Positions 11,246 to 35,953 of a DNA stretch of 44,210 nucleotides are shown in pieces; position 1 is the first letter of the stretch; every line of letters begins with the position of its first letter. The DNA is taken from positions 1 to 44,210 of the forward strand of contig JANQNJ010000038.1 in assembly GCA_028279645.1 (NCBI GenBank). The letters run 5' to 3'. The notes under the pieces were generated by a model. It made no database searches and was not told where the DNA came from. It was given only the letters and a program-made list of their open reading frames with translations. The stretch comes from Thermoplasmatota archaeon. GTDB taxonomy: Archaea > Thermoplasmatota > JAKEGO01 > JANQNJ01. Both the position numbers and the translations under genes were made by a program.

Positions 11246-14200
11246 ATGCCTAGGACATCACTTGTTAGATCGATAGGATTACTCATGGCAATGCTTGCGG
11301 TCGCGATACTCGCGTTCGCAGCTGCGGCAGCGGCCGATGACGGTTACGAGGAGAACGACAACAGCCTCACCGCGGCCTGGATCGACCCGGGAGTGTTCGC
11401 GGACCTCTCCTCCGAGGACGACGACTATTACAAGGTCAACCTGTCCGCATCGGACGACGTTAGAGTGACGGTTTGGTACGAGACCAGCTCGGCCGGCCAG
11501 GGGCTCTACCTGTACAACTCGACCATGGTCCTCGTTGACTCCTCCACGGATGCCGATGGTGAGGAGATGGTCAACGGCACCGGACTCGATGCGGGTGTGT
11601 ACTACATCCTTGTCGATCACGGCACATCCAACTCCGACTATCACATGGCAGTGGTTAACATGGGCGGAGTCGCCGATCAGTGGCTCTTCCTGGTCTACCT
11701 TGATGCGGACAACGACCTGGAGTCTGCAGGTGACGAGGACGTGGTCGAGATGGAGCAGGTCGGTTCCGGTGACGGGCTGTGGATCCTAGCACTCCATGAT
11801 CGATGGGATTCCAATGATACGACAATCAAGTTCATCAGGGACGGCGACAACGTCTCGCTCCCGATATGGGTGGTGAACAGATCATGGACCGATGAGGCGA
11901 ACATGGGCAACGCCTCTACCCTCATCGAGTGGTACGACTGGTGCATGAGGTCCTTCGCCCTTAGCACGAACGTCATGCTGGACCTATGGGACCATGGCGG
12001 AGGACACTGGGGAGTATGCTGGGACGACACGGACGGTCACGACAACCTGGGGGTTGTGGAGCTCGGCTGGGCCTTGAACCAGATCGAGGACCAGCACGGT
12101 GTGATAGAGCTGTTCGGCCTGGACGCGTGCCTCATGGCCATGGTGGAGGTCGCCCTGGAGGCGAACGGGACCGCCAACTACTTCCTGGCATCGGAGGAGA
12201 CGGAACCGGGCGACGGCTGGGAATACCAGCTCTTCCTGGATGACCTTCGCAACAACGTCACGACCTGGAACGGCTCCCATCTGGCACAGAAGATCATCGA
12301 GACCTACATGGTTAGGTATGCGGGCTACGGGGATGTCACCCTTTCGTACATCGACATGATGAACTCGCCGGACACAGTTGCGAAAAAGGTGGATGACCTC
12401 GCCGACGCGCTTATGGTGAACATATCGGAGCACAACGACGATGTTGCGACCGCACGAGGCAACAGCCAGGAATATCACGACGATGACATAATCGATCTGT
12501 ACGACTTCGCCTGGTCGCTGTTCAACGAGAGCGCCAACGCAACCATCGACCTGCTCTGCGCCGGTGTCATGGATGCGATCAATGACACCGTTCTATACGA
12601 GGACCATGGGTCTGCTCTGCCAGGCAGCTACGGACTCTCCATCTACTATCCTGACACCTATTCGAGCATCTATGACGATTTCGCGTTCACCTGGACCGAT
12701 TGGGATGAGCTGATACAGGCGGTCAACGGGTCAGGAGTTGACAACGATACCGATGACAGCTTCGAGGAGAACGATGACAGCGGATCTGCTGCGGAGATCG
12801 ATTTCGGCTATTACGTTAACCTCACCTGCGCTGACGACGATTGGTACAAGGTCTACCTGACGGCGGGCGACATGATCGGAGTCAACATCTTCTTCGACAA
12901 CGGCTCCGCTGACCTTGACCTCTTCCTATACGACCCGTCCCTGCTTGAGATGAACGCTTCAGAATCGTACAGGTCGTGGGAGGGCTTGGAGAACGTGGCC
13001 TCCACCACAGGCTGGCACTATATCGAGGTCTATCTGTACGAGAACGGCACCCAATACGAGATGAGCGTCAGGACCGATGACGAGTTCGAGGAGAACGACG
13101 ATCAGGGTTCTGCGGCTGCCATCACGGCCGGCAACAGGACAGGCCTGGAGTGCTTCGACAACGATTACTACAAGGTCTTCCTGTGGGTGGGCGAGGAGAT
13201 CAACGCCACGATCTGGTTCAACAACACGCTGGCCGACATAGACCTCTCCCTGTATGATACGAACGGATCATCGCTGGACGAGTCCGAGTCGGTCTCAGGG
13301 AGCGAGTCTGTCACCGGGACGGCAACGGTCACCGGCTGGTATTACATCAATGTGTACAACTACACCAATGCGACGACATACGACATGTACATTGTGATCG
13401 ACAGAGCCTACGGCGGCAGCATCGTAGTTGACGACGACGTGGGATGGTGGACCGACTTCACCTCGATCCAGGACGCAGTGTACGCCGCCGATAACGGGAC
13501 GACCATCTTCGTATATACAGGCAATTATTCCGAGGAGGTCCTTGTGAATCTCACAGTATCGTTCGTCGGGAACGGCACGGACATGACCTTCGTTACCGGC
13601 TGGAACATCTCCGACGTGTTCAATGTAACTGGGGCATGGGTGAACTTCACGGGTCTGAACATATCTAACGGTAACAGCTCCGGCATCATCTTCTACTACA
13701 CATGGAACGGCACTGTCGCCAACTGCAACGTGAGCAACAACAACCGTACCGGGATCAGGATCGAGTATTCCGACAACATGACCATCACCAACTCGTATAT
13801 CTGCAACAACGGGGATGGCATCTTTATCAACGGAACGAACAACACCTTGATCCAGCATTGTACCTTCCTGAACAACACCGGTGGCGGAGGCAACTACAAC
13901 GATGGGGTCAGAGGGAAATGGAACGTATCGAACTTGACCGTCTTCGACAACTACTTCGCCAAGAACTCGTACGGGGTGGACCTCGACTCCTGGGATGAGC
14001 TCACGAACTTCTGGAATATCGAGATATCGTACAACGAAATGTACGACCATTCCGATGAAGGTATATGGGCCAGCCACCTCGCGAACTCGTCGATCCACAA
14101 TAACACCTTCAACTTCAACTATGGTGGAATGTACTTAGACATGAGCAGCGATCTCACTATAGCGAACAACGATGTCTCCTGGGGCGACGAGGGGATGGTC

Positions 14201-14812
14201 TTCTACAATTGCGACGGGCTTGGGATCCTGAACAACACGGTGAGCTACAACAATGACGTGGCGATCTTCACCCACGGCGGTACGGGGTTCTCATACATCT
14301 GGTGGAACTACATCCATAATAATTCATGTAGCGGTCTTAACCTGGCCAATGGCGAGTACATTGAGGTCATCAACAACAGCTTGATGCATAATGCCGAGAA
14401 CGGCACCTCCCTCTGGAACGTCTCGAACACCGAGATAGCCTACAACGAGATCATGAACAACACCGGCTATGGTGTCAGCCTGTTCAACTCCTCGGTCTGC
14501 ATGGTCCACAACAACAACTTCCTCTGGAACGGCGGAAACACCTCCCAGGGATACGATAATGCGTTCTCGAACCAGTGGGACAACGGCACCCACGGGAACT
14601 GGTGGGGCGACTACAACGGAACCGACTCCAATGGTGACGGGATAGGTGATTCCCCGTACGGCATCGAAGGGACAACGACCGCCGACGACTACCCGCTGGT
14701 CAACACAACGAACACTACAGCACCAGAGAAGGTACCAGAGCTTACCGTGCTCCTGGGAAGCGCCGGCATGGTCGCCATGTTCGCCATCTTCCGAAGGAAG
14801 CGTAGGTTCTAG
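11246..14812 (+). CDS. Secreted clostripain-like (C11) protease with PPC domains, beta-helix and C-terminal anchor
   Basis: An 1,188-residue surface protein. Residues 1-30 are a signal peptide ending in AAAAADD. A pre-peptidase C-terminal (PPC)-like beta domain follows (about 30-132, opening YEENDNS). Residues about 140-490 match clostripain/C11 peptidases: VYLDADNDLE, the catalytic His in LWDHGGG (H250), and the catalytic Cys in GLDACLMA (C295). Two more PPC-like domains (about 505-605 and 607-705) each open with FEENDD. Residues about 720-1150 form a NosD-type right-handed beta-helix with many N-x-S/T sequons and repeated NNT/NNS turns. The tail VPELTVLLG, a hydrophobic segment and RRKRRF resemble archaeal sorting/anchor tails. 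C11 enzymes cleave after Arg or Lys and often self-process. The fusion with a beta-helix suggests a glycan-facing, heavily glycosylated protein. Confidence 0.85.
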   Translation: MPRTSLVRSIGLLMAMLAVAILAFAAAAAADDGYEENDNSLTAAWIDPGVFADLSSEDDDYYKVNLSASDDVRVTVWYETSSAGQGLYLYNSTMVLVDSSTDADGEEMVNGTGLDAGVYYILVDHGTSNSDYHMAVVNMGGVADQWLFLVYLDADNDLESAGDEDVVEMEQVGSGDGLWILALHDRWDSNDTTIKFIRDGDNVSLPIWVVNRSWTDEANMGNASTLIEWYDWCMRSFALSTNVMLDLWDHGGGHWGVCWDDTDGHDNLGVVELGWALNQIEDQHGVIELFGLDACLMAMVEVALEANGTANYFLASEETEPGDGWEYQLFLDDLRNNVTTWNGSHLAQKIIETYMVRYAGYGDVTLSYIDMMNSPDTVAKKVDDLADALMVNISEHNDDVATARGNSQEYHDDDIIDLYDFAWSLFNESANATIDLLCAGVMDAINDTVLYEDHGSALPGSYGLSIYYPDTYSSIYDDFAFTWTDWDELIQAVNGSGVDNDTDDSFEENDDSGSAAEIDFGYYVNLTCADDDWYKVYLTAGDMIGVNIFFDNGSADLDLFLYDPSLLEMNASESYRSWEGLENVASTTGWHYIEVYLYENGTQYEMSVRTDDEFEENDDQGSAAAITAGNRTGLECFDNDYYKVFLWVGEEINATIWFNNTLADIDLSLYDTNGSSLDESESVSGSESVTGTATVTGWYYINVYNYTNATTYDMYIVIDRAYGGSIVVDDDVGWWTDFTSIQDAVYAADNGTTIFVYTGNYSEEVLVNLTVSFVGNGTDMTFVTGWNISDVFNVTGAWVNFTGLNISNGNSSGIIFYYTWNGTVANCNVSNNNRTGIRIEYSDNMTITNSYICNNGDGIFINGTNNTLIQHCTFLNNTGGGGNYNDGVRGKWNVSNLTVFDNYFAKNSYGVDLDSWDELTNFWNIEISYNEMYDHSDEGIWASHLANSSIHNNTFNFNYGGMYLDMSSDLTIANNDVSWGDEGMVFYNCDGLGILNNTVSYNNDVAIFTHGGTGFSYIWWNYIHNNSCSGLNLANGEYIEVINNSLMHNAENGTSLWNVSNTEIAYNEIMNNTGYGVSLFNSSVCMVHNNNFLWNGGNTSQGYDNAFSNQWDNGTHGNWWGDYNGTDSNGDGIGDSPYGIEGTTTADDYPLVNTTNTTAPEKVPELTVLLGSAGMVAMFAIFRRKRRF

Positions 14813-16972: not shown

Positions 16973-18382
16973 TCACACCTTCTTGATCAGTACAACGCCG
17001 AAGGTCACGGCCATTATCAGCACCATGAACACAATGGGGATGAACAGGGCCAGCCCGGCTCCCGAGATCCCCTCGTCCTCCTCCTCCTCGCCCAGGAAGC
17101 CCTGGCTCTCGACGCCGGGATCATGATAGATCCTCTCACCGGCGGGGTAGTTGAATCCTGCTGCCATGAGGAGGCCGGCTGCCATCCGCTCGCCGTCCTT
17201 GAACGCGAAGGCCTTCCCGCCCTGGACCTGATAGGTCATCTCCTCTGTGGTGGTGGTGTTACCATCGGTGATCTCCACATCCTTGATCCAGGTCAGCCTG
17301 CCCGAGCGCTCCCATTCGTCGGAGATGTCCATCCTGGGATGGACCACCCTTCTGGGCTTCGTCTGCTGATAACCGGTGCCGAGTCCCTCTGTCTGCAGGG
17401 TCTCGTTCCCCTTGTCCCCGTTGAACCGGATCCCGCCCTCGCGCTTGAGGGCGCGGAGAGTGTTCATGTGGTACCACTTGCCGGGCTTGCTGGGGACAGA
17501 GGTGGCGCTCAACACCAGGTTCTCGAGCATGAGCGAGGCGTTGGCGTTGTTCTCCTGGAAGTCCCAGCCCCGGATGTCGTGGTCGACCTTCGATCCGTAT
17601 CGGACAACATTGCCGGTGACGTTCTTGGTGGTCTTGGTGACCGTTCCGTCCGCCTTCCATGTCCCAGCAGCACCGCCTGCGCCGGCTTTAACTGTGATGT
17701 TGTAGATCGGGACCAGGACCTTCGTCCTGTTCACATGAGCGGTGAGCTTGAACGTGAACGTGACGCTGTCAAGCACGTCCGACGCGTTGGGCGGGGCCGT
17801 GCCTCCTGTAAGATCGATATAGCCAAGGTTCCTGGCCGTCAGGGAGAACTGGTAGGAGGCCCACTTCGCGGAGTTGTTCTTCTCCTTGGTGACCTCGGAG
17901 AGCTCCCATGACGCGTTCAGGTTCACGGCCTTGAACACCTGGTCCACAGCAGTGAAGGACGCCTTGTCTACATTCCCCCCCTTTCTGAGGAGGTGGCAGA
18001 TCCCGTCGCCGTCGGTATCGTTGTACTCGACCAGTGAGTTCATGCGCATTCCGAGGAACGTCCACGCCTTGATCGGCGTTCTCGATGCCAGCTGCTTTCC
18101 GGCGCCGGTCTTAACGTTGGACATCCCAAGATATCTAGCCATCCTCGAGTATATGATGACCGAATTGGGGTCCTTGTCTGTGCCGTATATCACGCCGAAC
18201 CATGCGTCGTTCCCGAACCTGATCGCGACATAGTCTCCGCCGCCCATCAGATCCGTGGTCCCCGTCGCCTTGTGTATCTTAGCCGGAACGGACCCGTCCT
18301 CATCGCCGGCCGCGACCAGCGGCAGGGTGGCGACAAGGAGCAGTCCTATGGCCAACGTAGCAAATCCTTTCCTGGAGTTCAA
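16973..18382 (-). CDS. Secreted membrane-anchored protein of unknown family (first tandem paralogue)
   Basis: A 469-residue protein starting at a TTG at 18382, chosen because GAGGTGATC lies 4 nt upstream and the product opens with a clean signal peptide (MNSRKGFATLAIGLLLVATLPLVAAGD). The mature part is beta-rich with several N-x-S/T sites and the paired landmarks WFGVIYGT (about 57-64) and NYPAGERIYHDP (about 405-416). A short acidic EEEEDE linker leads to a C-terminal membrane helix (LALFIPIVFMVLIMAVTFGVVLI) and KKV. The acidic, sequon-bearing middle implies an extracytoplasmic location. No enzyme motif is seen. It forms a two-gene unit with the downstream paralogue; a TATA-like element on the minus strand near 18432-18444 is suitably placed. 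Confidence 0.75.
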   Translation of the reverse strand: MNSRKGFATLAIGLLLVATLPLVAAGDEDGSVPAKIHKATGTTDLMGGGDYVAIRFGNDAWFGVIYGTDKDPNSVIIYSRMARYLGMSNVKTGAGKQLASRTPIKAWTFLGMRMNSLVEYNDTDGDGICHLLRKGGNVDKASFTAVDQVFKAVNLNASWELSEVTKEKNNSAKWASYQFSLTARNLGYIDLTGGTAPPNASDVLDSVTFTFKLTAHVNRTKVLVPIYNITVKAGAGGAAGTWKADGTVTKTTKNVTGNVVRYGSKVDHDIRGWDFQENNANASLMLENLVLSATSVPSKPGKWYHMNTLRALKREGGIRFNGDKGNETLQTEGLGTGYQQTKPRRVVHPRMDISDEWERSGRLTWIKDVEITDGNTTTTEEMTYQVQGGKAFAFKDGERMAAGLLMAAGFNYPAGERIYHDPGVESQGFLGEEEEDEGISGAGLALFIPIVFMVLIMAVTFGVVLIKKV

Positions 18383-18431
18383 AGGATCACCTCAAATGCA
18401 CGCATCCGTGTGCTTGTGATAGTAAGTGATG

Positions 18432-18444
18432 TGGATATAAAAAA
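18432..18444 (-). promoter_or_regulatory. TATA box of the paralogue pair
   Basis: The minus strand reads TTTTTTATATCC about 50-60 nt before the TTG start at 18382, giving a predicted start near 18410. Confidence 0.5.
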
Positions 18445-18451
18445 TGAATCA

Positions 18452-18509
18452 CTGCACCCGGGTCCGCAGGGTCCCGAGTGCAGCGCCTTTTCGGCCGCTC
18501 CTTGCGGCC
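18452..18509 (-). terminator. Two stem-loops between the repeat-protein gene and the paralogue pair
   Basis: GGCCGC at 18493-18498 pairs perfectly with GCGGCC at 18504-18509 around a 5-nt loop. Next to it, CTGCAC (18452-18457) pairs with GTGCAG (18478-18483), extended by CGGG/CCCG after one mismatch. They lie just after the stop of the repeat-protein gene on the minus strand. No U-tract follows, so they could be 3' end processing or stability elements and not a true terminator. Confidence 0.4.
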
Positions 18510-18561
18510 TTCGTTCGATCTTCGTCGTAGCGTAGAGGGGGATCATACCCTCGACCTATCC

Positions 18562-19602
18562 TCAGGCCTCGGCCCTCGGGGTTGCCTTGTCGACCTCGCG
18601 GAAGGGCATCCAGCGGCCCTTGATGGAGCCGCTGTTGCCGTTGAGGCACTGGTAGGAACCCTCGAAGCTGTTGTTCCCGATCTCGCCCTTGAGGTAGCCG
18701 CCGAGCCTTCCGCCTGGGAGCTTCCAGAAGCCGACGAACACGTCGCCGTTGTGGAAGCCGAACATCCTGCCAGCGCGGCCGCCGTCGGCGGGCCTCCAGG
18801 ACCCCCTGAAGGCTCCGATGCTGTGGTTCCTGGAGATGTAGAGCCTTCCATAGGTTCCCTTCAACCTGCCGTCCGCGGACGGGGCTGCGTCGGTCTTCTC
18901 TGCGTCGTTCCCATCCTCTGTATCGGTCTCATCCTGGGCCTCCACATCGTCCTTGTAGTAGAGACCATTGTAGACGCCCTTGGGTACGTACTTGACCCGG
19001 GACGTGAATCGGCCCTTTAACTGGCCGGTGGCGCCGGTGGCGTCATCCAGCCACCTGCCCTCGAAGTAGTTCATGGTCCCGTCGGTCCTGTAGTGTCCGC
19101 CGAGCTTGCCATAATGGTCGCCATCGACTGAGCTGAACCGGCCGTAGAACTTGTGGCCAACGATCCGTCCATGGATATAGCCCTCGACACCATCCTGGGT
19201 GTAGAGGCCGATGAACTGTCCCTTGGCCCGTCCGTTGCTGCTCTTCACCAGTCGATAGACGCCGATGATCCGTCCGGAGATATCGTCATCGGGATCCGTA
19301 GCGTCCTGGGTTCCGGATTCGACATTGGTCTCGTCCGTTTCGCCGGTCTCTTCGGCCGCCACGTCCGTTGCTGGATCTTCGTCAAGGGTCCACTGCCCGA
19401 GCATAAGTCCGCGCTCAAATCTGAACTTGTAGACAGTGTCCTTCTCAAAAGCATACTCGTTGGTCATGTATCTCTTCGTGTTCTTCTTTCGTGCATCGCT
19501 CTGGTCCTGCTCGTTGTCCGCCGCGACTGACAGCGTCGAAACGACCATCAGGGCCACCATGAAGATCGCGAGGACACCCGCGATCGTCGTTCTCTTCATC
19601 AT
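18562..19602 (-). CDS. Secreted glycine-rich repeat protein (MORN-like strands)
   Basis: Start placed at the ATG at 19602 (MMKRTTIAGV), where AAGGTGG lies 4 nt upstream; an earlier in-frame ATG at 19674 has no support and lies in the operator region. The 346 residues begin with a signal peptide ending near SVAADN. After an acidic segment come many short beta-type units of the form G-x-hydrophobic-x-G-x-F/W/Y, such as GRIIGVYRL, GQFIGLY, GRIVGHKFYGRF, FEGRW, GQLKGRF, FRGSW, VGFWKL, FEGSY and IKGRW, interrupted by an acidic DETDTEDGND stretch. The pattern recalls MORN or antifreeze-like beta-solenoid strands, but the period is irregular. There is no C-terminal anchor. A perfect palindrome covers its predicted transcript start, so tight regulation is likely. 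Confidence 0.7.
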   Translation of the reverse strand: MMKRTTIAGVLAIFMVALMVVSTLSVAADNEQDQSDARKKNTKRYMTNEYAFEKDTVYKFRFERGLMLGQWTLDEDPATDVAAEETGETDETNVESGTQDATDPDDDISGRIIGVYRLVKSSNGRAKGQFIGLYTQDGVEGYIHGRIVGHKFYGRFSSVDGDHYGKLGGHYRTDGTMNYFEGRWLDDATGATGQLKGRFTSRVKYVPKGVYNGLYYKDDVEAQDETDTEDGNDAEKTDAAPSADGRLKGTYGRLYISRNHSIGAFRGSWRPADGGRAGRMFGFHNGDVFVGFWKLPGGRLGGYLKGEIGNNSFEGSYQCLNGNSGSIKGRWMPFREVDKATPRAEA

Positions 19603-19894
19603 TTTTCCACCTTCTCTCTCGGTTCTATATCGCCCCGCCAAACACATAGGGAGGCAATGTGCATATCCGTGCAAAGCACCTAGTAATACTAGGTATCCAA
19701 AGTATTTATAGTTTGCCTATATAGAATATTTAGATATTGGCATAAATAAATAGAATTGGCGTCAATTCGTCAATATCTCGCGGCGATCGGCCTCAGGCGA
19801 TCGCCATCGCTGAGTATTATCGTTCATCGATGCAGGAATGAGGGGGCGTGTAAGGAGCAAAGGATTTAATGATGTAGCTGTTACCAGAGGAACG
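19603..19894. promoter_or_regulatory. AT-rich divergent promoter region
   Basis: This gap serves the repeat-protein gene (minus) and the presenilin-like gene (plus). It holds the minus-strand TATA box at 19703-19710, the palindrome at 19678-19694, several further AT-rich runs (about 19715-19755), and a weaker plus-strand TATA-like GGATTTAAT near 19862-19870, about 25-30 nt before the ATG at 19895. No gene is seen in it. Confidence 0.5.
19678..19694. promoter_or_regulatory. Perfect 17-bp palindrome at the predicted transcript start
   Basis: ACCTAGTA-A-TACTAGGT is an exact inverted repeat around one central base. The minus-strand TATA box TATAAATA at 19703-19710 places the transcript start of the glycine-rich repeat gene at about 19680, inside this palindrome. 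A dimeric repressor site is the simplest reading. Confidence 0.55.
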
Positions 19895-21910
19895 ATGAGC
19901 GATTCCACGAGGAAGCCTCTCTTTACAATGGCGCTTATGTTCATAGCGGTACAGCTGATCGCAATATCGGTCACACCCCTCTACGAGGCTTCCGGGATGA
20001 AGGCATTCGAGGACGAGGACAACATCTGGAACCCCATCTGCTACATCGTCATGATAATCGTCTTTACCTTCCTTATATTGTTCATTATTAAGAAAGGGCG
20101 CAAGAACCTCATTAATTACATCTTGTTAGGTGCTGTGTTCATTACCATCTCCTACGTGGTCTATCCCTTCTTCAACGAGGCGATGGGCTACAACCCGGAG
20201 GATTCAGAATGGAAGGTGCGGGACTTCGGATATATCACGGATATTGACTTCCTGGACCTGAACAGCGACGGGATGGACGAGATCGTACTGGTCAGGAATA
20301 ACAGGACCATCATCATACTGGATGAAGGATTCAACGTACTCGCGAAATACGATGCATTGACGGAGAACGATTACATCAACGACGGAGAGGCTGAACCGGC
20401 ACCATTCCCCCCTTGGAACTCTTCCGGGAACCGGATATATGACATGTGGACCATTCAGGGGACAAAATATGCCTATATCTATTACATTGACAGCACGGGA
20501 ACATACTACAGAGGATTCAAGCTTGATCCAGCGAACGGCACCTATCCAACCCTTGAAGACCTGAAGTTCGGAATGAAAAAGACAGGGAAGAACTCATCAG
20601 CGTACATCGGCGAGGCTTACTACCCGAATCTGAAGACGTTTGCTCGTTCCTATTGGGGTAATCTGACATCAAGCCTTCACATTGTAAATTATACACAGAT
20701 AGTGGATGCTCCTCAGGCACCTCACTTCATGCCGGGTCACGCAACATTCGTGGATAATGTTGGACCATCGATGGCAGTGGCATGGAACAAGTTCATCATG
20801 CACACAGGTGATGAGCTACTCCTATACAAGAAAGAACCACCCAGGAACGAGGACACTAATGGTACCTTAGTAAGAACTGTTGATTTCGAGGACATGTTGG
20901 GTATGGAGATCGTTCCGAAAGGCCTCAAGTTCGACAAAGGCAAAGGCTCCTTGGTCGCCTGGAACAGCTCTAAGATAGTCGTATACGACGAGGACCTGAA
21001 CAAGCTCTGGTCGGCGAAGCATGCCAGGATCAAGGACGTCGAAGCCGCCAACCTATGGGGAACCGATATTCCTGAGCTCGTTGTAAGAACCGGCAACCGG
21101 ATCCAGATCTACAACGGAGAGGAGCTTCAGGCCCGCTGGGACCTCGACGTCGACGTCGGGTTCATCGATTCCGGCGGAAGCGGCATAGCCATAGGCGAGA
21201 CCGACGGCGATCCGGATACCAAGGTCCTGATGCTGGGAACCGGGAACGGTATCAACTACGAGCGGATCGAAGAGGGCGAATACAGGCTCATCACTCCCCC
21301 CAAGATCCTCGCTCTGGTCGTCGCCATCCTTCTCACTTTCGCGCTCATGAAATGGCCGGAATGGTACGTGGTGGACAGCGTCGGGATCATGGTCGCCGCA
21401 GGCGCCGCATCACTGTTCGGTCTATCCTTCTCCATTCTTCCGACGATCATACTCCTGTCGATCCTGCTGATATACGATGCGATATCCGTTTACAAAACGA
21501 AGCACATGGTGGACCTAGCCGACAACGTCGTCGAGATGCATCTACCGTTGCTCGTGGTCGTGCCCAAGGACAAGGACTACAGCTTCAAGGAGCAAGGGTC
21601 GATCAAGGAGCAGATCGATAAAGGCGAGGAACGAGAGGCGATGTTCATGGGCCTGGGCGATCTCATCGTTCCGTCTATCCTCGTGGTCTCCTCCTACAGG
21701 TACCTGGCCCAGAACGAATGGATGTTCGGTCTGACCACAAATATGATCGTGGCACTGGCAGTATCAATAGGGATCCTGTGCGGATACGGCGTCCTCTCAT
21801 ATTATGTTGCTAAAGGCAAACCGCAGGCCGGCCTGCCGTTCCTGAACTCCGGTGCCATGGCAGGATACTTCATAGCCGTGGTCATACTGTACGGCAACGT
21901 TGGCTTCTAG
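19895..21910 (+). CDS. Presenilin-type (A22) intramembrane aspartyl protease with a large extracytoplasmic insertion
   Basis: Start set at the ATG at 19895 (MSDSTRKPLF), preceded by GAGGAACG; the frame opens earlier at 19838 without a good site. The 671 residues show nine membrane helices as in presenilin: three at about 9-93, then an insert of roughly 390 residues, then six at about 490-671. Catalytic Asp528 lies in LLIYDAISVY (helix 6) and Asp589 in MGLGDLIVP (helix 7, the GxGD motif). QAGLPFLN at 644-650 stands where the PAL motif is expected. With the presenilin topology, the helix 3-4 insert is outside the cell. It contains DIDFLDLNSDGMDEIVL and ELVVRTGNRIQIYNGEEL, which look like FG-GAP/VCBS propeller repeats with a calcium-type DxNxDG. 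Archaeal homologues are usually about 300 residues, so this form is unusual. Confidence 0.85.
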   Translation: MSDSTRKPLFTMALMFIAVQLIAISVTPLYEASGMKAFEDEDNIWNPICYIVMIIVFTFLILFIIKKGRKNLINYILLGAVFITISYVVYPFFNEAMGYNPEDSEWKVRDFGYITDIDFLDLNSDGMDEIVLVRNNRTIIILDEGFNVLAKYDALTENDYINDGEAEPAPFPPWNSSGNRIYDMWTIQGTKYAYIYYIDSTGTYYRGFKLDPANGTYPTLEDLKFGMKKTGKNSSAYIGEAYYPNLKTFARSYWGNLTSSLHIVNYTQIVDAPQAPHFMPGHATFVDNVGPSMAVAWNKFIMHTGDELLLYKKEPPRNEDTNGTLVRTVDFEDMLGMEIVPKGLKFDKGKGSLVAWNSSKIVVYDEDLNKLWSAKHARIKDVEAANLWGTDIPELVVRTGNRIQIYNGEELQARWDLDVDVGFIDSGGSGIAIGETDGDPDTKVLMLGTGNGINYERIEEGEYRLITPPKILALVVAILLTFALMKWPEWYVVDSVGIMVAAGAASLFGLSFSILPTIILLSILLIYDAISVYKTKHMVDLADNVVEMHLPLLVVVPKDKDYSFKEQGSIKEQIDKGEEREAMFMGLGDLIVPSILVVSSYRYLAQNEWMFGLTTNMIVALAVSIGILCGYGVLSYYVAKGKPQAGLPFLNSGAMAGYFIAVVILYGNVGF

Positions 21911-21956
21911 GTGCCAGGCCAAACATTTCAAATATCCTGGCGGACATTCACAGACC

Positions 21957-22853
21957 GTGTGCATCCAACCCCTTGACGTCATTCGATTGATGTTCGGCGG
22001 AGGCCTGCTGCTGTACGCATCCTGGTCCGATCTAAAGACCAGGAGGGTTACCAACATATTGTGGGCAGAGGTCATATTCTTCGGAATGCTGTTCATGGGA
22101 GGGGACATGATAGGCAGGGGGGAATACGCAGAGCTCCTGATCCTCGTACCGATAGCGACCATCGGGATGATCATGTTCTTCGAGGGGGGCAAGAGGACCA
22201 ATTTGAAGGAGAACCAGATCGCCACGCCGATATGGATCGTCATGTTCATTGCATCTATAGCCAGCGTTGCTGGATTGAGGATGATGATCGACGACGTCTG
22301 GGACTTCTTCGAGCTTGCCCAGATACCGCTGCTCATGCTGGTCTTCTTCGGCATGTGGGCGGTCGGCTTCTTCGGCGGAGGGGATGCAAAGTGCCTGATG
22401 AGCATGGCCGTACTGGTTCCAGGCCACCTCCTCTCGTCCGAGCTGCCGCGCTTCGGTACCGAGAACCCGGCCTTCCCGTTCGTCGTGACGATGTTGATGA
22501 ACGCTGCGATCCTGTTCGCATTCTATCCCGTCTGTCTGTTCTTCGTCAATCTGGCCAGGCGCAAGTTCGGGCTCCCGGAGATGTTCCTCGGACTGAGGAT
22601 GCCATTGGAGAAGGCGAAGAAGAGCTTCATGTGGCCCATGGAGCGCATCGTCGACGGCCAGCACGCCCTCTTCCTGTTCCCGAGCAAGAAGATGGACATC
22701 AAGAAGGAGCTTCGTCTGCTGGAGAAGGAGGGGATCGACGAGATCTGGGTCTCGCCGAAGATCCCGTTCGTCATCGGTCTGACAGCAGGATTCATCGTGG
22801 CCGGCCTGTTCGGAGACATCATCTGGACATTGATGATGAACCTCGTCGGATGA
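21957..22853 (+). CDS. A24-family preflagellin/prepilin peptidase (FlaK/PibD-like)
   Basis: A membrane aspartyl protease that removes class III signal peptides from archaellins and pilins. I place the start at the GTG at 21957, giving 298 residues; a TTG at 21900 is possible but overlaps the preceding gene, and a TATA-like element near 21926-21936 suggests a leaderless GTG. Catalytic Asp25 is in SWSDLKTRRV and Asp143 in FFGGGDAKC, the GxGD motif. After about six helices comes a soluble segment (MDIKKELRLLEKEGIDEIW) and VSPKIPFVIGLTAG with a last helix, the layout of the archaeal type II A24 C-terminal domain. It directly follows another GxGD protease. No archaellin operon is present in the window. 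Confidence 0.9.
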   Translation: MCIQPLDVIRLMFGGGLLLYASWSDLKTRRVTNILWAEVIFFGMLFMGGDMIGRGEYAELLILVPIATIGMIMFFEGGKRTNLKENQIATPIWIVMFIASIASVAGLRMMIDDVWDFFELAQIPLLMLVFFGMWAVGFFGGGDAKCLMSMAVLVPGHLLSSELPRFGTENPAFPFVVTMLMNAAILFAFYPVCLFFVNLARRKFGLPEMFLGLRMPLEKAKKSFMWPMERIVDGQHALFLFPSKKMDIKKELRLLEKEGIDEIWVSPKIPFVIGLTAGFIVAGLFGDIIWTLMMNLVG

Positions 22854-28732: not shown

Positions 28733-31700
28733 GTGAAGATGGGTAAGTCGAAAGAACGGACCACACTGGAAGAGATTGGAAGGGTGATCCGCCGGAAGCG
28801 GTGGACCATCCTGACGTTGACCGTTATTTTCTTCCTGGCACTCTTCCTCCGGGCGTATTTCTACTACGAACCCGCCGTGGAGGACGGTGTCAGGCTGTCG
28901 GGTAACGACCCGTACTATCACAAGAGAGTGATCGATCATGTCCAGGAGGACCATACCCATCTTCTAGAGGACCCCATGATCGGTTACCCCGGAACTGGTT
29001 CCGATCCGGGTAACCCGCGTCCCCCTCTCTTCGACTGGTCGATAGCCGTGATAGGGTTGATACTCGCGCCGATATTCGGCGGCGATGTGGTGACGTCCAC
29101 GAACCTCGTCACCATATTCACCCCCTCCTTCTGGAGCGCGTTAACTGTCTTTCCGGTCTACTTCTTCACGCGGGAGTATTTCGGCAAGAAGGCGGGGATC
29201 ACAGCGGCGCTGCTGTTAGCAATAATGCCGGCTCACATCGACCGTTCTACCTTGGGGTTCGCGGACCACGACTCCTTCGTCGTGTTCTTCTCCGTCGTAA
29301 CCTTCTTCTTCTATGCCAGGGCCCTGCGCACCATGCGTACGGGGACCTGGGTGAAGAACTGGCGCTCGATCAAGGAGATACGTAAGGGGTTGAGCAGATA
29401 TGCGGAATCCAACCGTATCAGTTTGGGATACGCCTTCCTATCGGCGTTCTCTTTGGCTACGATAGCCCTCGCCTGGAAAGGGTTCAGCTACGTGCTCGCC
29501 ATTCTTCTCATATACTACTTCATTCAGCTGCTGATCAACGCCTTCAAACACGACGATTCGCTGCCTATAGCGGCGATAACGCTGATCGTCTTCGCTATAC
29601 CGCTGTTCCTTTCGATACCAGCGTACGATGCCATGGGCTTCCTCAAATCGAGCTGGGGCCTCAAACCGGTGTTCTACCTGTTCATGGGCGTCGTCGGGCT
29701 GACGATACTGTTCGTCCCCACAAGGGACGTTCCATGGTTACTCCTGCTGCCCAGCATAGCGTTGATCGGCATCATCACCTATCTGGTGATGCTGCTGATA
29801 TCGCCTGAATCCGCAGATCTGCTGTTCAGCGGTGCGGGTTACTTCGTGAAAACGAAACGTTTCTCGACGATCGCAGAGGCTCAGGCGCCAATTCTCAGCC
29901 GGCTCATAGTGAGCTACGGGGTGACAACGTTCTTCCTTGCGCTCATAGGGATCGTCTTCGCCGGTCTCGAGTTCAAGAAGAAGTGGCAGGCGGACGAGCT
30001 GTTCATCGTCGTATGGGCCTTCGTCGCCATATTCATGGCGATCTCGGCCATACGTTTCATGTTCAACGCGTCCCCCGTGTTCGCGATCCTGCAGGGATAC
30101 ATACTGTTCTGGATAATCAAGAAGACCAACTTCAGAAGCATCACCAACGCTTTGCGGGGCTTCAAAGGAAGCACCATCTACGCCCTTCGCAAGGGGACGA
30201 AGGTCCGGCACATCGTGGTCGGCCTCTTCGTGGCCTTCCTGGTCATCCTCCCGAACGTCTGGTTCGCGGTTGACGCCGGGATACCCTTCGAGGACAAGCA
30301 GGAATACGACGAGAAGATCTACAACGCAATGCCGGAATGGATCCGACCCGACGACTACGAGCGCGGCCGGACCGTCTGGTATCTCGGCGCCTTCGGCCAA
30401 GGCTTCCCATCGGAGTACTGGCAGAAAGGTTTCGAATGGTTATCCGAACAGGACAACGATCTCGAACCTGAGGACCGTCCAGCCTTCCTGAGCTGGTGGG
30501 ACTATGGTATGTGGTGCGTCAAGATCGGCGACCATCCCACTGTTGCGGACAACTTCATGAACGGGCACGAGATGGCCGGTAACTTCATCGCCGCGGAAGG
30601 CGAGGAGGAGGCCGTCGCCCTGCTCGTCGTGAGGATCACGGAGAAGAAGGTCCGCACCGAGAAGAACGTCAGAGCCCTCATCGCCGACTACATCGGCGAG
30701 GACGAGATGAAGACGTACGTGGATGCGATCAAGAACAGCGGAGACTACATCGACGAGATCAACGAGCATCCGGAGACCTACGGAAGGAAGGAAGGCCTCA
30801 GAAAGGGGAACGCCAAGTACACCATGGCCACAGAGGTCCTGATGAGGAACCTCGACCTGGAGGAGCTCGTCTCCCTCCTGGCGGATGCCGAGGAGATCAC
30901 GGGCTACGCCATCAGGTACTTCGGGGTAGATTCCAGGATGTTCCCGTTCTCGTACTACAACACCGGTATCTTCTATGCTCCCATCACACTGGCGGACCAC
31001 TACGTGGACGACTTCCTCCAGACCATGATCGTTGTCGACGGCGAGGTCATAACACCCGAGGAGTTCGAGCAGCGTCTGGCCCTCGATCCGGAGCTCCAGG
31101 CGGAGAACCTGGTACTCGCCTACACCGACAAGTTCTACAACACGATGTTCTACAAGACGTACATCGGATACAACTACCAGGACCTCGGCATGGATGAGTT
31201 CAACGGGATACCCGGAATGTCCGGCCAGCTGGCCCAGTATCCGTCCCTGCAGGGATGGGGAATGAAGCACTTCAGGCTGATCTACAAGACCGCCTACTGG
31301 AACCCGAGGAACTCCACCGACCTCCTCTTCGACGAGAAGGACTGGCAGGTCGTGTCCTACGACGACGCACTGGAATATGCCGAGCAGGAGAAGGGGACCG
31401 TCGACCTGAACAGCGGCCTCAGCTCCGGCGTGATGATGGTCAAGTACTATCACGGCGCCATCATCTCTGGCCAGGTCGCCACCGACGAGGGCGTCGGCAT
31501 CGAGGGCGCGACGGTCACCGTTTATGACGAGTACATGATCGCCCACGACTCGACCACCACCGAGGCCGACGGCAGCTATTCCCTGATCTCGCCTCCTGGC
31601 GAGAACGTGACCCTGGTGGCCTCCAAGGGCGGACAGTTCAACCCCCTGGACAAGAGCTTCGAGACGAAGCTCCACGAGGAGAACTTCACCATCACTGAGG

Positions 31701-34700
31701 ACCAGGCAGAGCGGAGGAAGATCGACAGTGACGGCGACGGCATCCACGATTACCTGATCACGAAGGACATCACAGTGGATTCCACCACCATCAACGGCAC
31801 CCTGTTCTGGGACACCAACCACAACTCCAAGGTCGGAAAGAGCGAGGAGCTCATAGCCAACACCGAGGTCAGGCTCACAGGGCCGAACAACCTCACCGCA
31901 ATCACCAACGATACCGGCTTCTTCAGCACCGGCTCGCTCCTCGAGGGCGAGTACACTGTGTCCATCGAGCTGGACGGAGTTGAGATCCAGCTGACCGAGA
32001 CCATCGAATCCGACGGAGCGGACCCGATCACGAAGGACCTTCCCCTCCAGGGAGCCACTGTCGACGGGTCTGTCACCGACACCGAGAACGCGGAAGCTGC
32101 CGATATCGAGGTGCGGCTGACCGACCAGGAGGACGATACCGTCTACAGCGCGACCACGAACGAGGATGGAGAGTACACCATCAACGACGTCCTTCCGGGG
32201 AGATACTCGCTGTGTCCGAAGGTGGAGGGAAACACCTCCTCACCAGTCTTCCTTGACCTGCAACTTGGCGACAGACAGACATCGGACTTCGTTCTCACCT
32301 CCACCGAACAGGTCGAGGGAACGGTCTGGATAGACCGGAACGAGGACGACAAGAGGTCGGTGGATGAGGGCGCGGCCGGCGCCAGGGTCCTGTTCTACGG
32401 AAAGAACGGGGATCAGGACGTCGTGTACACCGTCGTCGCCGACGAGGACGGTGTTTTCAAGGGCGATGTCCCCGATGATACCTACACTGTCAGCGTTGCT
32501 TACTACGAGGACGGCTCGAGCTACATATCGGACAGCATCGTCGACACTTCCTCGACGGACGATCTCGAGATCGAGCTGCTAGGCTCCGTCACCCTCAGAG
32601 GCCATATTTTCATCGAGACCATGATCGGTTCGAACGTCGAACTGGTCGGGGTCCCGGCGGACCTTTACATCGATTCGGGCGACAAGACCTGGACCGGCCA
32701 GGCCAACAAACGCGGCAACTTCAGCTTCGAGCTCACCAAGGGCGATTACATCTTCAGGGCGGAGCATACCGAGGGCAACAAGTCCTTTGCTCTCTCCCTT
32801 GACCTTTCCCTCACCGAGGACATGGTGCTCGATGAGCAGATGAACGAGGCGAAGGAGTTCGTCGGAAGGGCCTACTGGGACAAGGACAGGGACAACATCA
32901 TGGACGAGGACGAGGGGATGGCCGGAGTGACCATCACCTTCGAGTCCAGCTCCAGGACGTTCCAGACCGTCACCGACAGCAGCTACTGGTACCGAATAGC
33001 CATTCCAAAGGACGACTACACGATATCGGTGGAGAACGCCCCGGCTATCGAGCTGGAGGCATCCAGCTTCTCCCTGGGCGATCTCAAGTTCAAGCCCGAG
33101 GAGGTGACCGTGCGCGGCACAGTGTGGTGGGACGGCGACTTCAACATGAACATGAGCAACGACGAGATCGCCGGCTCCGATCTGGTCATACAGTTCGTTC
33201 CGTCGAACACCACCACCGAGATAGAGATCGACACCGAGGACGGATCGTTCGAACTGGACCTGTCGCCCGGCGCGTACAAGTTAGTGATCAACGCGACCGA
33301 TGCAGACGACCACCAGTACTTCTACGAGGGTTCGATGTTCATCCCTTACGGGACCGCCGAGATGGAGGTGGACCTCCTGGCGATCAAGATGGTCTACTTC
33401 GACCCGGTCCTGACGAAGGACGGAGTACCCATCGATCCCGACGACGTCAACGAGGACGGCTTCTTCAGGGTGTTCGATCCCTACGGACCCGACGATAAGA
33501 GCATACCTCTCGACAACGAGTTCGTCGAGGACTGGATCAACGGAGGGTTCATCTTCCCGGGTACGTATACCATCTGGGCTGCCTACGACGGCGAGGTCTA
33601 TCTGGGCTCACACGACATACACGATTCGGAGGAGCGGACCTTCGAGCTGGTCCCCGCGACGACCTACCAGGGCGAGATCCTCATGAAGCTCAGAGAGGAC
33701 ACGGAGGACTCCGTGGACTTCGAAAGCTTCCTGATCGACTTCATCTCCGAGGAAGGCGGGACGGCCAAGTTCTCGACCGAGTTCGACCATATCAACGACG
33801 GTTACAACTATTCGGTGATCCTGCCCACGGGCGGCACATATACCGCCTCCACCAACTTCACCTCCACCGAGGATGACCACGTCTACGTTATCGACCAGGA
33901 GATATCGCCGTTCGACGACCTGGTCCTCGAGAGATACTGGCGGTTCCGCGGGACGGTCTTCTACGACTGGAACGACGATGACGACGATGCCGGCGAGGAG
34001 GTCGTGGGCGTCGAGCTGACCATGTCCAACGAGGAGGACTCGTTCACCATCGTGACGGATGCCGATGGGAAGTTCACCGAGTACATGCCCTATGGGGCCG
34101 ATGGAAGGTACAACATCACCGTTGGGACCCCGGGCTACTCGGAGAGACCCAACACGGGCAGGATATTCGTCTCCGAGCTAAGGGAGAACATAGAGCTCGC
34201 AGCGGACAATGTGACCGTGACCGGGACGATATTCGTCGACGAGAACGTTGACGGGCTCCTGGACGATGATGAGGAGCCGACCTCGATCCAGGTGCAGTAC
34301 ACCAGGATCTCCGAGGAGAACGAGCACGATCCGATCCCTGTGACCCTCAACGGGTCAGGGGAGACCGGCAGGTACTGGATATCGCTCGAGCCCGGTAATT
34401 ACGAGGTCACCACCGACCACGGCACCTACAGCACCCTCGAGAAGACGAAGGTCAGGATCCAGGAGAGCGGAAAGCAGGAGAGCAACGTCCCGCTGGCCAC
34501 CAAGGCCAATGTACGCGGAAACCTGTACTATGTCAACGTATCGGGTGAATACGTGCAGCTCGATCCGGACACGTTCACCAACGAGCTGATCTTCAAGACC
34601 GAGGAGAAGCTCGAGGCATCGCCCGACATCCACGGAGCGTTCTACTCGCTCGACATCCCGCTGGGAAACTACTCGATCAACGGCAGGATAGAGACCGAGG

Positions 34701-35953
34701 AGTACGGCATGGACATCGAGTACAGGGTGAACGAGCAGGTAGAGCTCACCGAGGACACGGTACTTGACCTGAAGTTCCAGCAGATCGTCGACAAGAGCTT
34801 CGATCTGAAATGGCTGGAGAAGAAGGATGACACCGCCAGAAGGGACGTCAATACCAGCATCCTCTACAATATCCGCCTGATCAACAACGCTAACATCCTT
34901 GAGAACACCATCGAGCTGTCCATGGACGATGGACCGGACGGATGGGAGCTCCAGTTCGAGGAGGACGAGATCGTCCTCGGCCTCGAGGAGAAGCGCGACC
35001 TCTGGGTCAGGGTGAACATCTCGGAGAGATCGCCTGCCGGAGAGCAGGAGGTCGAGGTGAAGGCCCGGGCGACCGGAGAGGACAGCGTCACCGAGACCAC
35101 GGACCTCAAGGTCGTCGTCAACGAGTACTATAACATGATCATGGACGCTCCGGCACCAGAGAGAGGGATGCTCAAGGGAACGACCATCCCCATGGACATC
35201 ATGTTCATCAACGACGGCAACAACCCGGACACCTTCGACATCTATCTTCCCGACGCCCCGGAAGGCTTCAACTACACGCTGACGGACGATGCGGGAGAAC
35301 CGTTGGAGGACACCAACAACAATACGATCCTGGACACAGGCGAGCTCGAGGCATACATCAACAAGCTGATCTTCGTTAACGTTACAGCGGACGACGAGGC
35401 TGCAGGAAACCACACCATCCAGGTGTCGGGCGTCAACGAGATCGGGCTGGAAACTTCGAAGACCCTCACGGTCTCGGTCACAACGCCCGACATCACTGTA
35501 GGCGATCTGTCGGTGAAACAGCGCATCGACGACGACATCAACAGGACGGTCTTCCTCAACGTCACTATATACAACAACGGAAGCTTGAGAGCCGAGGACA
35601 TGGACCTCCGGTTCACGAGGGACGGTAAGGACATAGTGTACGATCGTGCAGCCCTTCTCATGGATGGAGAGCCCCTGGAGGACCGCGACATCGTCATCGA
35701 GATCCCGAGTGCGAGGACCTTCTCCCTGAAGATCAACATGACCGGCGACGGTTACCACACCTTCGGGCTCAAGGTCTCACTGATAAACTCAACCGATTCA
35801 AAGAGGAGCGATAACTACGTGGAGACCACGGCGTTCGTGGGCGAGAAGGGCACGGAAGAGGCCGAAGAGGGCTCACCGGTCCTTGTGGGGATCATCGTGA
35901 TCCTGGTCCTGCTCGTGATCTACATGTTCTACAGGCGAAGACGCAGATGGTAG
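28733..35953 (+). CDS. aglB: Giant STT3/AglB oligosaccharyltransferase with about 1,500-residue surface repeat extension
   Basis: A 2,406-residue protein; usual AglB are about 800-1,000. It moves lipid-linked glycans to Asn in N-x-S/T sites on the outer membrane face. The N-terminal ~530 residues hold about 13 helices, D59 in SGNDPYYH (metal-binding first outer loop), DHD at 178-180, and TIAE at 379-382. The sequon-binding WWDYG is at 588-592. From about residue 908 it continues as beta-sandwich modules: a carboxypeptidase-regulatory-like unit, then units about 90 residues apart that open like SdrD-B repeats, e.g. GTLFWDTNHN (~1020), GTVWIDRNED (~1193), GRAYWDKDRD (~1376), GTVWWDGDFN (~1459), GTVFYDWNDD (~1738) and GTIFVDENVD (~1827). 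Two NEW3-like units and a CARDB-like unit (~2020-2370) precede a final membrane helix and RRRRRW. The GTG start has AAGGTGA before it. Confidence 0.9.
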   Translation: MKMGKSKERTTLEEIGRVIRRKRWTILTLTVIFFLALFLRAYFYYEPAVEDGVRLSGNDPYYHKRVIDHVQEDHTHLLEDPMIGYPGTGSDPGNPRPPLFDWSIAVIGLILAPIFGGDVVTSTNLVTIFTPSFWSALTVFPVYFFTREYFGKKAGITAALLLAIMPAHIDRSTLGFADHDSFVVFFSVVTFFFYARALRTMRTGTWVKNWRSIKEIRKGLSRYAESNRISLGYAFLSAFSLATIALAWKGFSYVLAILLIYYFIQLLINAFKHDDSLPIAAITLIVFAIPLFLSIPAYDAMGFLKSSWGLKPVFYLFMGVVGLTILFVPTRDVPWLLLLPSIALIGIITYLVMLLISPESADLLFSGAGYFVKTKRFSTIAEAQAPILSRLIVSYGVTTFFLALIGIVFAGLEFKKKWQADELFIVVWAFVAIFMAISAIRFMFNASPVFAILQGYILFWIIKKTNFRSITNALRGFKGSTIYALRKGTKVRHIVVGLFVAFLVILPNVWFAVDAGIPFEDKQEYDEKIYNAMPEWIRPDDYERGRTVWYLGAFGQGFPSEYWQKGFEWLSEQDNDLEPEDRPAFLSWWDYGMWCVKIGDHPTVADNFMNGHEMAGNFIAAEGEEEAVALLVVRITEKKVRTEKNVRALIADYIGEDEMKTYVDAIKNSGDYIDEINEHPETYGRKEGLRKGNAKYTMATEVLMRNLDLEELVSLLADAEEITGYAIRYFGVDSRMFPFSYYNTGIFYAPITLADHYVDDFLQTMIVVDGEVITPEEFEQRLALDPELQAENLVLAYTDKFYNTMFYKTYIGYNYQDLGMDEFNGIPGMSGQLAQYPSLQGWGMKHFRLIYKTAYWNPRNSTDLLFDEKDWQVVSYDDALEYAEQEKGTVDLNSGLSSGVMMVKYYHGAIISGQVATDEGVGIEGATVTVYDEYMIAHDSTTTEADGSYSLISPPGENVTLVASKGGQFNPLDKSFETKLHEENFTITEDQAERRKIDSDGDGIHDYLITKDITVDSTTINGTLFWDTNHNSKVGKSEELIANTEVRLTGPNNLTAITNDTGFFSTGSLLEGEYTVSIELDGVEIQLTETIESDGADPITKDLPLQGATVDGSVTDTENAEAADIEVRLTDQEDDTVYSATTNEDGEYTINDVLPGRYSLCPKVEGNTSSPVFLDLQLGDRQTSDFVLTSTEQVEGTVWIDRNEDDKRSVDEGAAGARVLFYGKNGDQDVVYTVVADEDGVFKGDVPDDTYTVSVAYYEDGSSYISDSIVDTSSTDDLEIELLGSVTLRGHIFIETMIGSNVELVGVPADLYIDSGDKTWTGQANKRGNFSFELTKGDYIFRAEHTEGNKSFALSLDLSLTEDMVLDEQMNEAKEFVGRAYWDKDRDNIMDEDEGMAGVTITFESSSRTFQTVTDSSYWYRIAIPKDDYTISVENAPAIELEASSFSLGDLKFKPEEVTVRGTVWWDGDFNMNMSNDEIAGSDLVIQFVPSNTTTEIEIDTEDGSFELDLSPGAYKLVINATDADDHQYFYEGSMFIPYGTAEMEVDLLAIKMVYFDPVLTKDGVPIDPDDVNEDGFFRVFDPYGPDDKSIPLDNEFVEDWINGGFIFPGTYTIWAAYDGEVYLGSHDIHDSEERTFELVPATTYQGEILMKLREDTEDSVDFESFLIDFISEEGGTAKFSTEFDHINDGYNYSVILPTGGTYTASTNFTSTEDDHVYVIDQEISPFDDLVLERYWRFRGTVFYDWNDDDDDAGEEVVGVELTMSNEEDSFTIVTDADGKFTEYMPYGADGRYNITVGTPGYSERPNTGRIFVSELRENIELAADNVTVTGTIFVDENVDGLLDDDEEPTSIQVQYTRISEENEHDPIPVTLNGSGETGRYWISLEPGNYEVTTDHGTYSTLEKTKVRIQESGKQESNVPLATKANVRGNLYYVNVSGEYVQLDPDTFTNELIFKTEEKLEASPDIHGAFYSLDIPLGNYSINGRIETEEYGMDIEYRVNEQVELTEDTVLDLKFQQIVDKSFDLKWLEKKDDTARRDVNTSILYNIRLINNANILENTIELSMDDGPDGWELQFEEDEIVLGLEEKRDLWVRVNISERSPAGEQEVEVKARATGEDSVTETTDLKVVVNEYYNMIMDAPAPERGMLKGTTIPMDIMFINDGNNPDTFDIYLPDAPEGFNYTLTDDAGEPLEDTNNNTILDTGELEAYINKLIFVNVTADDEAAGNHTIQVSGVNEIGLETSKTLTVSVTTPDITVGDLSVKQRIDDDINRTVFLNVTIYNNGSLRAEDMDLRFTRDGKDIVYDRAALLMDGEPLEDRDIVIEIPSARTFSLKINMTGDGYHTFGLKVSLINSTDSKRSDNYVETTAFVGEKGTEEAEEGSPVLVGIIVILVLLVIYMFYRRRRRW

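Follow-up and report, generated by a model that had tools for sequence, protein, structure and literature searches.

A presenilin homologue of a Thermoplasmatota archaeon with a predicted β-propeller ectodomain between transmembrane helices 3 and 4

Introduction

Archaeal presenilin homologues (PSH), such as that of Methanoculleus marisnigri (MCMJR1; PDB 4HYC/4HYG/4Y6K), are the standard simple model of presenilin. They have no ectodomain, and control of substrate entry by an outer domain can therefore be studied only in the four-subunit γ-secretase, where presenilin-1 is accompanied by nicastrin, a subunit in its own right whose fold is bilobed and aminopeptidase-like. Signal peptide peptidase and the SPPL proteins (Peptidase_A22B; SPPL2a, 9K92) have a related catalytic core. 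Their membrane orientation is opposite to that of the presenilin type, and SPPL2 proteins too have an ectodomain, an N-terminal PA domain.

The protein described here, from a Thermoplasmatota archaeon, shares with PSH the nine-helix core, the YD, GxGD and GLP/PAL motifs and a presenilin-like charge pattern, but has ∼ 370 residues in place of the 16-residue TM3–TM4 segment (91–106) of PSH. With presenilin-1 and nicastrin it has in common the catalytic fold and a large ectodomain on the outer face, glycosylated in γ-secretase and predicted to be so here; unlike nicastrin, the outer domain appears to be a propeller and belongs to the same chain. FG-GAP/VCBS and BBS1/BBS2/ITFG2 propellers resemble it in their seven blades and DxDxDG loops, but none of the matched proteins carries its propeller inserted in a protease or polytopic membrane protein. 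In the literature searched, which did not include the work of Raut, Glass and Lieberman (Proteins 2021; cited in PMC9263693), reportedly on the archaeal roots of presenilin/SPP-type proteases, we found no presenilin described as bearing a propeller.

Gene and protease core

The window, by which we mean the whole stretch of DNA analysed (44,210 nucleotides), holds an open reading frame at 19838–21910 (+) of 690 aa. Counted from the ATG at 19895 the protein has 671 aa, and this is the likely start because an AGAGGA sequence lies just upstream; a start at 19838 is possible but less likely. The features of the gene are as follows.

19886..19891, +: AGAGGA, Shine-Dalgarno-like; read directly
19895..21910, +: presenilin/SPP homologue of 671 aa, ectodomain inserted; matches to PF06550 and PSH 4HYC
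19916..20185, +: predicted transmembrane helices 1–3, residues 8–97; AlphaFold2 (AF2) model, alignment to PSH 8–90
20186..21295, +: inserted domain, residues 98–467, predicted to lie outside and to be an FG-GAP-type β-propeller; all-β AF2 model, iterative link to the propellers of L053, L075 and L073
20255..20272, +: DLNSDG calcium-type loop, residues 121–126; read in the sequence, motif count
21296..21892, +: predicted transmembrane helices 4–9, residues 468–666; AF2 pLDDT mostly > 84, alignment to PSH 107–291
21476..21478, +: putative catalytic D528, YD motif, helix 6; invariant in 38 homologues
21659..21661, +: putative catalytic D589, GLGD motif, helix 7; nearly invariant in 38 homologues, invariant in alignment A4
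21830..21838, +: GLP, PAL-equivalent, residues 646–648; nearly invariant in 38 homologues, invariant in alignment A4

Pfam family PF06550 matches the 671-aa protein in two pieces (E 2.4e-69) with a score of 234 bits against a curated cut-off of 23.9, which places it in the family. The closest solved structure is PSH 4HYC (total E 6.7e-59 by sequence alignment). Residues 8–90 align to PSH 8–90 and residues 473–663 to PSH 107–291, so that ∼ 370 residues stand where PSH has residues 91–106. The GLP at 646–648 lines up with the GLP in helix 9 of PSH, the PAL-like position. AF2, run with 33 sequences, gave a nine-helix core with pLDDT mostly 84–98, the helices spanning residues 3–32, 45–66 and 70–97, then, after the insert, 468–486, 490–511, 514–534, 587–603, 615–639 and 646–666. 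Foldseek matched this model to PSH 4HYG (E 3.6e-8) and also to PS1 of γ-secretase. We conclude that the window protein is a PSH-type intramembrane aspartyl protease of the presenilin/SPP family (A22), predicted to be active. A preliminary description had named a presenilin/SPP-type protease with nine helices on the strength of D528 in YD, D589 in GxGD and the GLP, and had put an insertion between helices 3 and 4; the family match, the conserved motifs and the predicted structure bear out the former, and the split PSH alignment and the order of the AF2 helices the latter.

Both PF06550 pieces lie in one frame, uninterrupted by any stop or frameshift. This single open frame, together with the same domain at the same site in many independent genomes (see below), rules out a frameshift, chimera or misassembly as the origin of the insert.

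The inserted domain

In the window protein itself (P0001) the fold is modelled with partial confidence. Residues 107–153 and 370–460 form β strands of moderate confidence, and the middle of the insert (157–371) has pLDDT < 50 and no confident fold. Foldseek matches of this insert to propellers were weak, and in a Pfam search none of the propeller families reached E ≤ 1 on P0001.

The identity of the domain comes from its relatives. In L075 (Thermoplasmata bin33) the insert matches BBS2_Mid (8.5e-13; 48.8 bits, cut-off 27) and FG-GAP (1.2e-4; 22.3 bits, cut-off 22.1), as well as FG-GAP_3 and ITFG2; a sequence comparison with the PDB likewise brought up BBS2 (1.8e-4). FG-GAP_3 is found again in the L073 insert (2.7e-5). 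From residue 131 to residue 433 the L075 model (pLDDT 81) has 28 strands, which make up seven blades of four strands each, and Foldseek aligns it on the BBS1 propeller with a target TM of 0.78. The insert of P0001 is linked directly to the inserts of family f2 (6.7e-9) and to L053 (1.2e-4). An iterative search extends the link to L075 (1.1e-9), L073 and the inserts of Poseidoniales; no decoy in that small database did better than 0.043. FG-GAP-type motifs are in excess over the homologous inserts, with 25 observed against 4.6 expected in shuffles. From the family matches of L075 and L073, the L075 model, the iterative links and the motif excess we assign the P0001 insert by homology, with moderate-to-high confidence, as an FG-GAP-type propeller. 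The propeller-like fold first proposed is thus supported, best in the relatives, with seven blades in L075, and is modelled only in part in P0001 itself; the insert comes to ∼ 370 rather than ∼ 390 residues, and the DLNSDG loop, beginning at D121, lies within it as described. Nicastrin was absent from the Pfam matches and from the 50 Foldseek matches listed, and we rejected a nicastrin fold for the insert. In L042 (G001), a relative of the same order, the insert is shorter (237 aa) and perhaps has fewer blades.

Loops of the DLNSDG type raise the idea that the outer loop is a sensor. The propeller would then bind calcium or a ligand and thereby turn the enzyme on or off, by analogy with regulated intramembrane proteolysis. 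We consider this very improbable: such loops are structural in most FG-GAP domains, there are few of them per propeller, and we identified no conserved ligand pocket.

Membrane side and glycosylation

Over 33 homologues, the number of K and R per 100 residues is 19 at the N-terminus, 52 in loop 2–3, 17 in loop 6–7 and 25 in loop 8–9, all assigned to the inside. Values on the outside are 3.5 in loop 1–2, 5.3 in loop 3–4 (which contains the insert), 2.4 in loop 7–8 and 0.8 at the C-terminus. The very short loop 4–5 (WPEW) is an exception, being K/R-poor yet inside by the charge count. NxS/T sequons number 194 in 30 inserts compared with 106 for the reversed motif, an excess that does not represent 194 independent events because the insert sequences are related. 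Charge bias and sequon enrichment agree in pointing to an insert outside the cell, where it had been placed by presenilin topology; the predicted orientation is therefore that of presenilin, with the N-terminus inside. The insert is probably N-glycosylated. A gene for an oligosaccharyltransferase is found in the same window.

28733–35953, +: STT3/AglB oligosaccharyltransferase gene

Its product (2406 aa) has a very long tail with CarboxypepD_reg/NOMO-like β domains.

Distribution of the insert

A single-protein query of genome contigs returned no match, but an alignment-based scan succeeded. Of the 390 Thermoplasmatota genomes sampled, at least 84, most of them Poseidoniales (marine group II), carry the insert at this very position; a profile of the f16 and f25 inserts alone finds 79 of the 390, and adding families f1, f2, f26 and f33 brings the count to at least 84. 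The families with the same-site insert are f1 (that of the window protein), f2, f26, f33, f16 (which includes L150 = UBA82, Candidatus Poseidoniales in the NCBI taxonomy) and part of f25, and across them the insert is conserved as a single unit at a single site. It is borne by many marine and sediment Thermoplasmatota, and recurrence in so many Thermoplasmatota genomes rules out a novelty confined to the window protein. Outside Thermoplasmatota no insert was seen among the 80 best named loci, where Methanosarcinales, Methanomicrobiales, Bathyarchaeota and others have 2–25 aa where measurable. The first view, that archaeal homologues typically have no domain of this kind, holds for archaea at large, but in Thermoplasmatota, above all Poseidoniales, the domain is widespread. 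Families f10 and probably f28 have inserts of 280–340 aa at the TM3–TM4 loop; neither hhalign nor iterative search linked these to the P0001 insert.

The f16/f25 profile also bears on what the propeller does. FG-GAP/VCBS/BBS-type propellers are generic protein-binding platforms, so the domain could instead be a docking device that has no part in substrate choice but positions the protease by binding the S-layer, a surface glycan, another protein of the envelope or the machinery of secretion or glycosylation. The genome's many other large FG-GAP proteins and the STT3/AglB gene inside the window would fit such a role. In the 390 genomes, however, matches to the profile always lie in a PSH frame, at one site beside the substrate groove, and never form a free domain; a portable module for docking would not have to be so restricted. 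We regard docking as possible but doubtful.

In a tree built from the core alone, the insert labels need four changes, one of them a loss nested in f25. Sister lineages have a loop of 10–25 aa at the site, and one clade has lost the propeller, so the protease can manage without this domain, as PSH does. Other material is accommodated at the same place. L072 (877–2028), from an unrelated lineage, carries DUF11, an Ig-like domain, in this loop (3.4e-7), and in L068 (frame 548–1879, +), which has a loop of remnant length, the propeller is replaced by ∼ 62 aa that include two additional hydrophobic helices. With a propeller, DUF11 or two extra helices found there, the TM3–TM4 loop is a hot spot for insertion. 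These substitutions, the many lineages with nothing in the loop and the loss within f25 would also suit a tolerated cargo, an outer loop that takes up domains and leaves the protease largely unaffected. Every sampled f16 genus, however, keeps the propeller at a near-constant length (345–416 aa), which speaks for selection, and we think mere tolerance unlikely.

Genomic neighbourhood

The next gene, 21900–22853 (+), is probably co-transcribed with the presenilin homologue; its product, a type IV prepilin peptidase of the archaeal kind (PF01478/PF06847), is likewise an aspartyl protease with a GxGD motif. This pairing was not seen in the flanks of the relatives, in which tblastn found no conserved neighbours of the presenilin homologue. 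In Poseidoniales, seryl-tRNA synthetase adjoins the PSH homologue, with no evident link. Elsewhere in the window, 11246–14812 (+) encodes a clostripain-family (C11) protease with PPC and NosD/right-handed β-helix domains (1188 aa), and two secreted-looking proteins (ORFs of 469 and 370 aa; no Pfam match) lie upstream of the protease and divergent from it at 16973–19674 (−).

Discussion

Our preferred reading, to which we give a probability of about 0.5, is an active protease with an outer seven-blade propeller, probably N-glycosylated, that selects or gates substrates in cis. Helices 6 and 7 hold the catalytic aspartates of the PSH-type intramembrane protease. The FG-GAP-type β-propeller, hung outside the membrane between the third and fourth helices, would cover the outer mouth of the substrate groove, where it could select, or sterically gate, the membrane-anchored stubs that reach the active site. 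Its role would be that of the separate subunit nicastrin in γ-secretase, which limits, by steric hindrance, substrates whose ectodomains are long (review PMC7248309, citing Bolduc 2016). The substrate pocket of γ-secretase is formed by helices 2, 3, 5, 6 and 7, with helix 3 helping to line it (PMC7248309), and an outer domain between helices 3 and 4 would be well placed for gating because it would sit beside the groove. By this analogy, gating or selection in cis by the propeller, whose fold differs from that of nicastrin, is plausible.

A wider proposal can be put forward only tentatively, and we would not yet bet on it: a single-chain presenilin with its own outer gate, acting by size or by sequence, may have evolved independently of nicastrin, with the outer loop serving as a socket into which a propeller, DUF11 or extra helices could be set to retarget the protease.

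The finding points to a protease of abundant marine archaea, the Poseidoniales, in which one protein may do the job of presenilin and of the separate outer subunit nicastrin, and suggests that gating by an ectodomain evolved on more than one occasion. A single-chain presenilin with an ectodomain and close relatives that have lost it form a matched pair, with and without, that could show whether an ectodomain alone imposes substrate selection.
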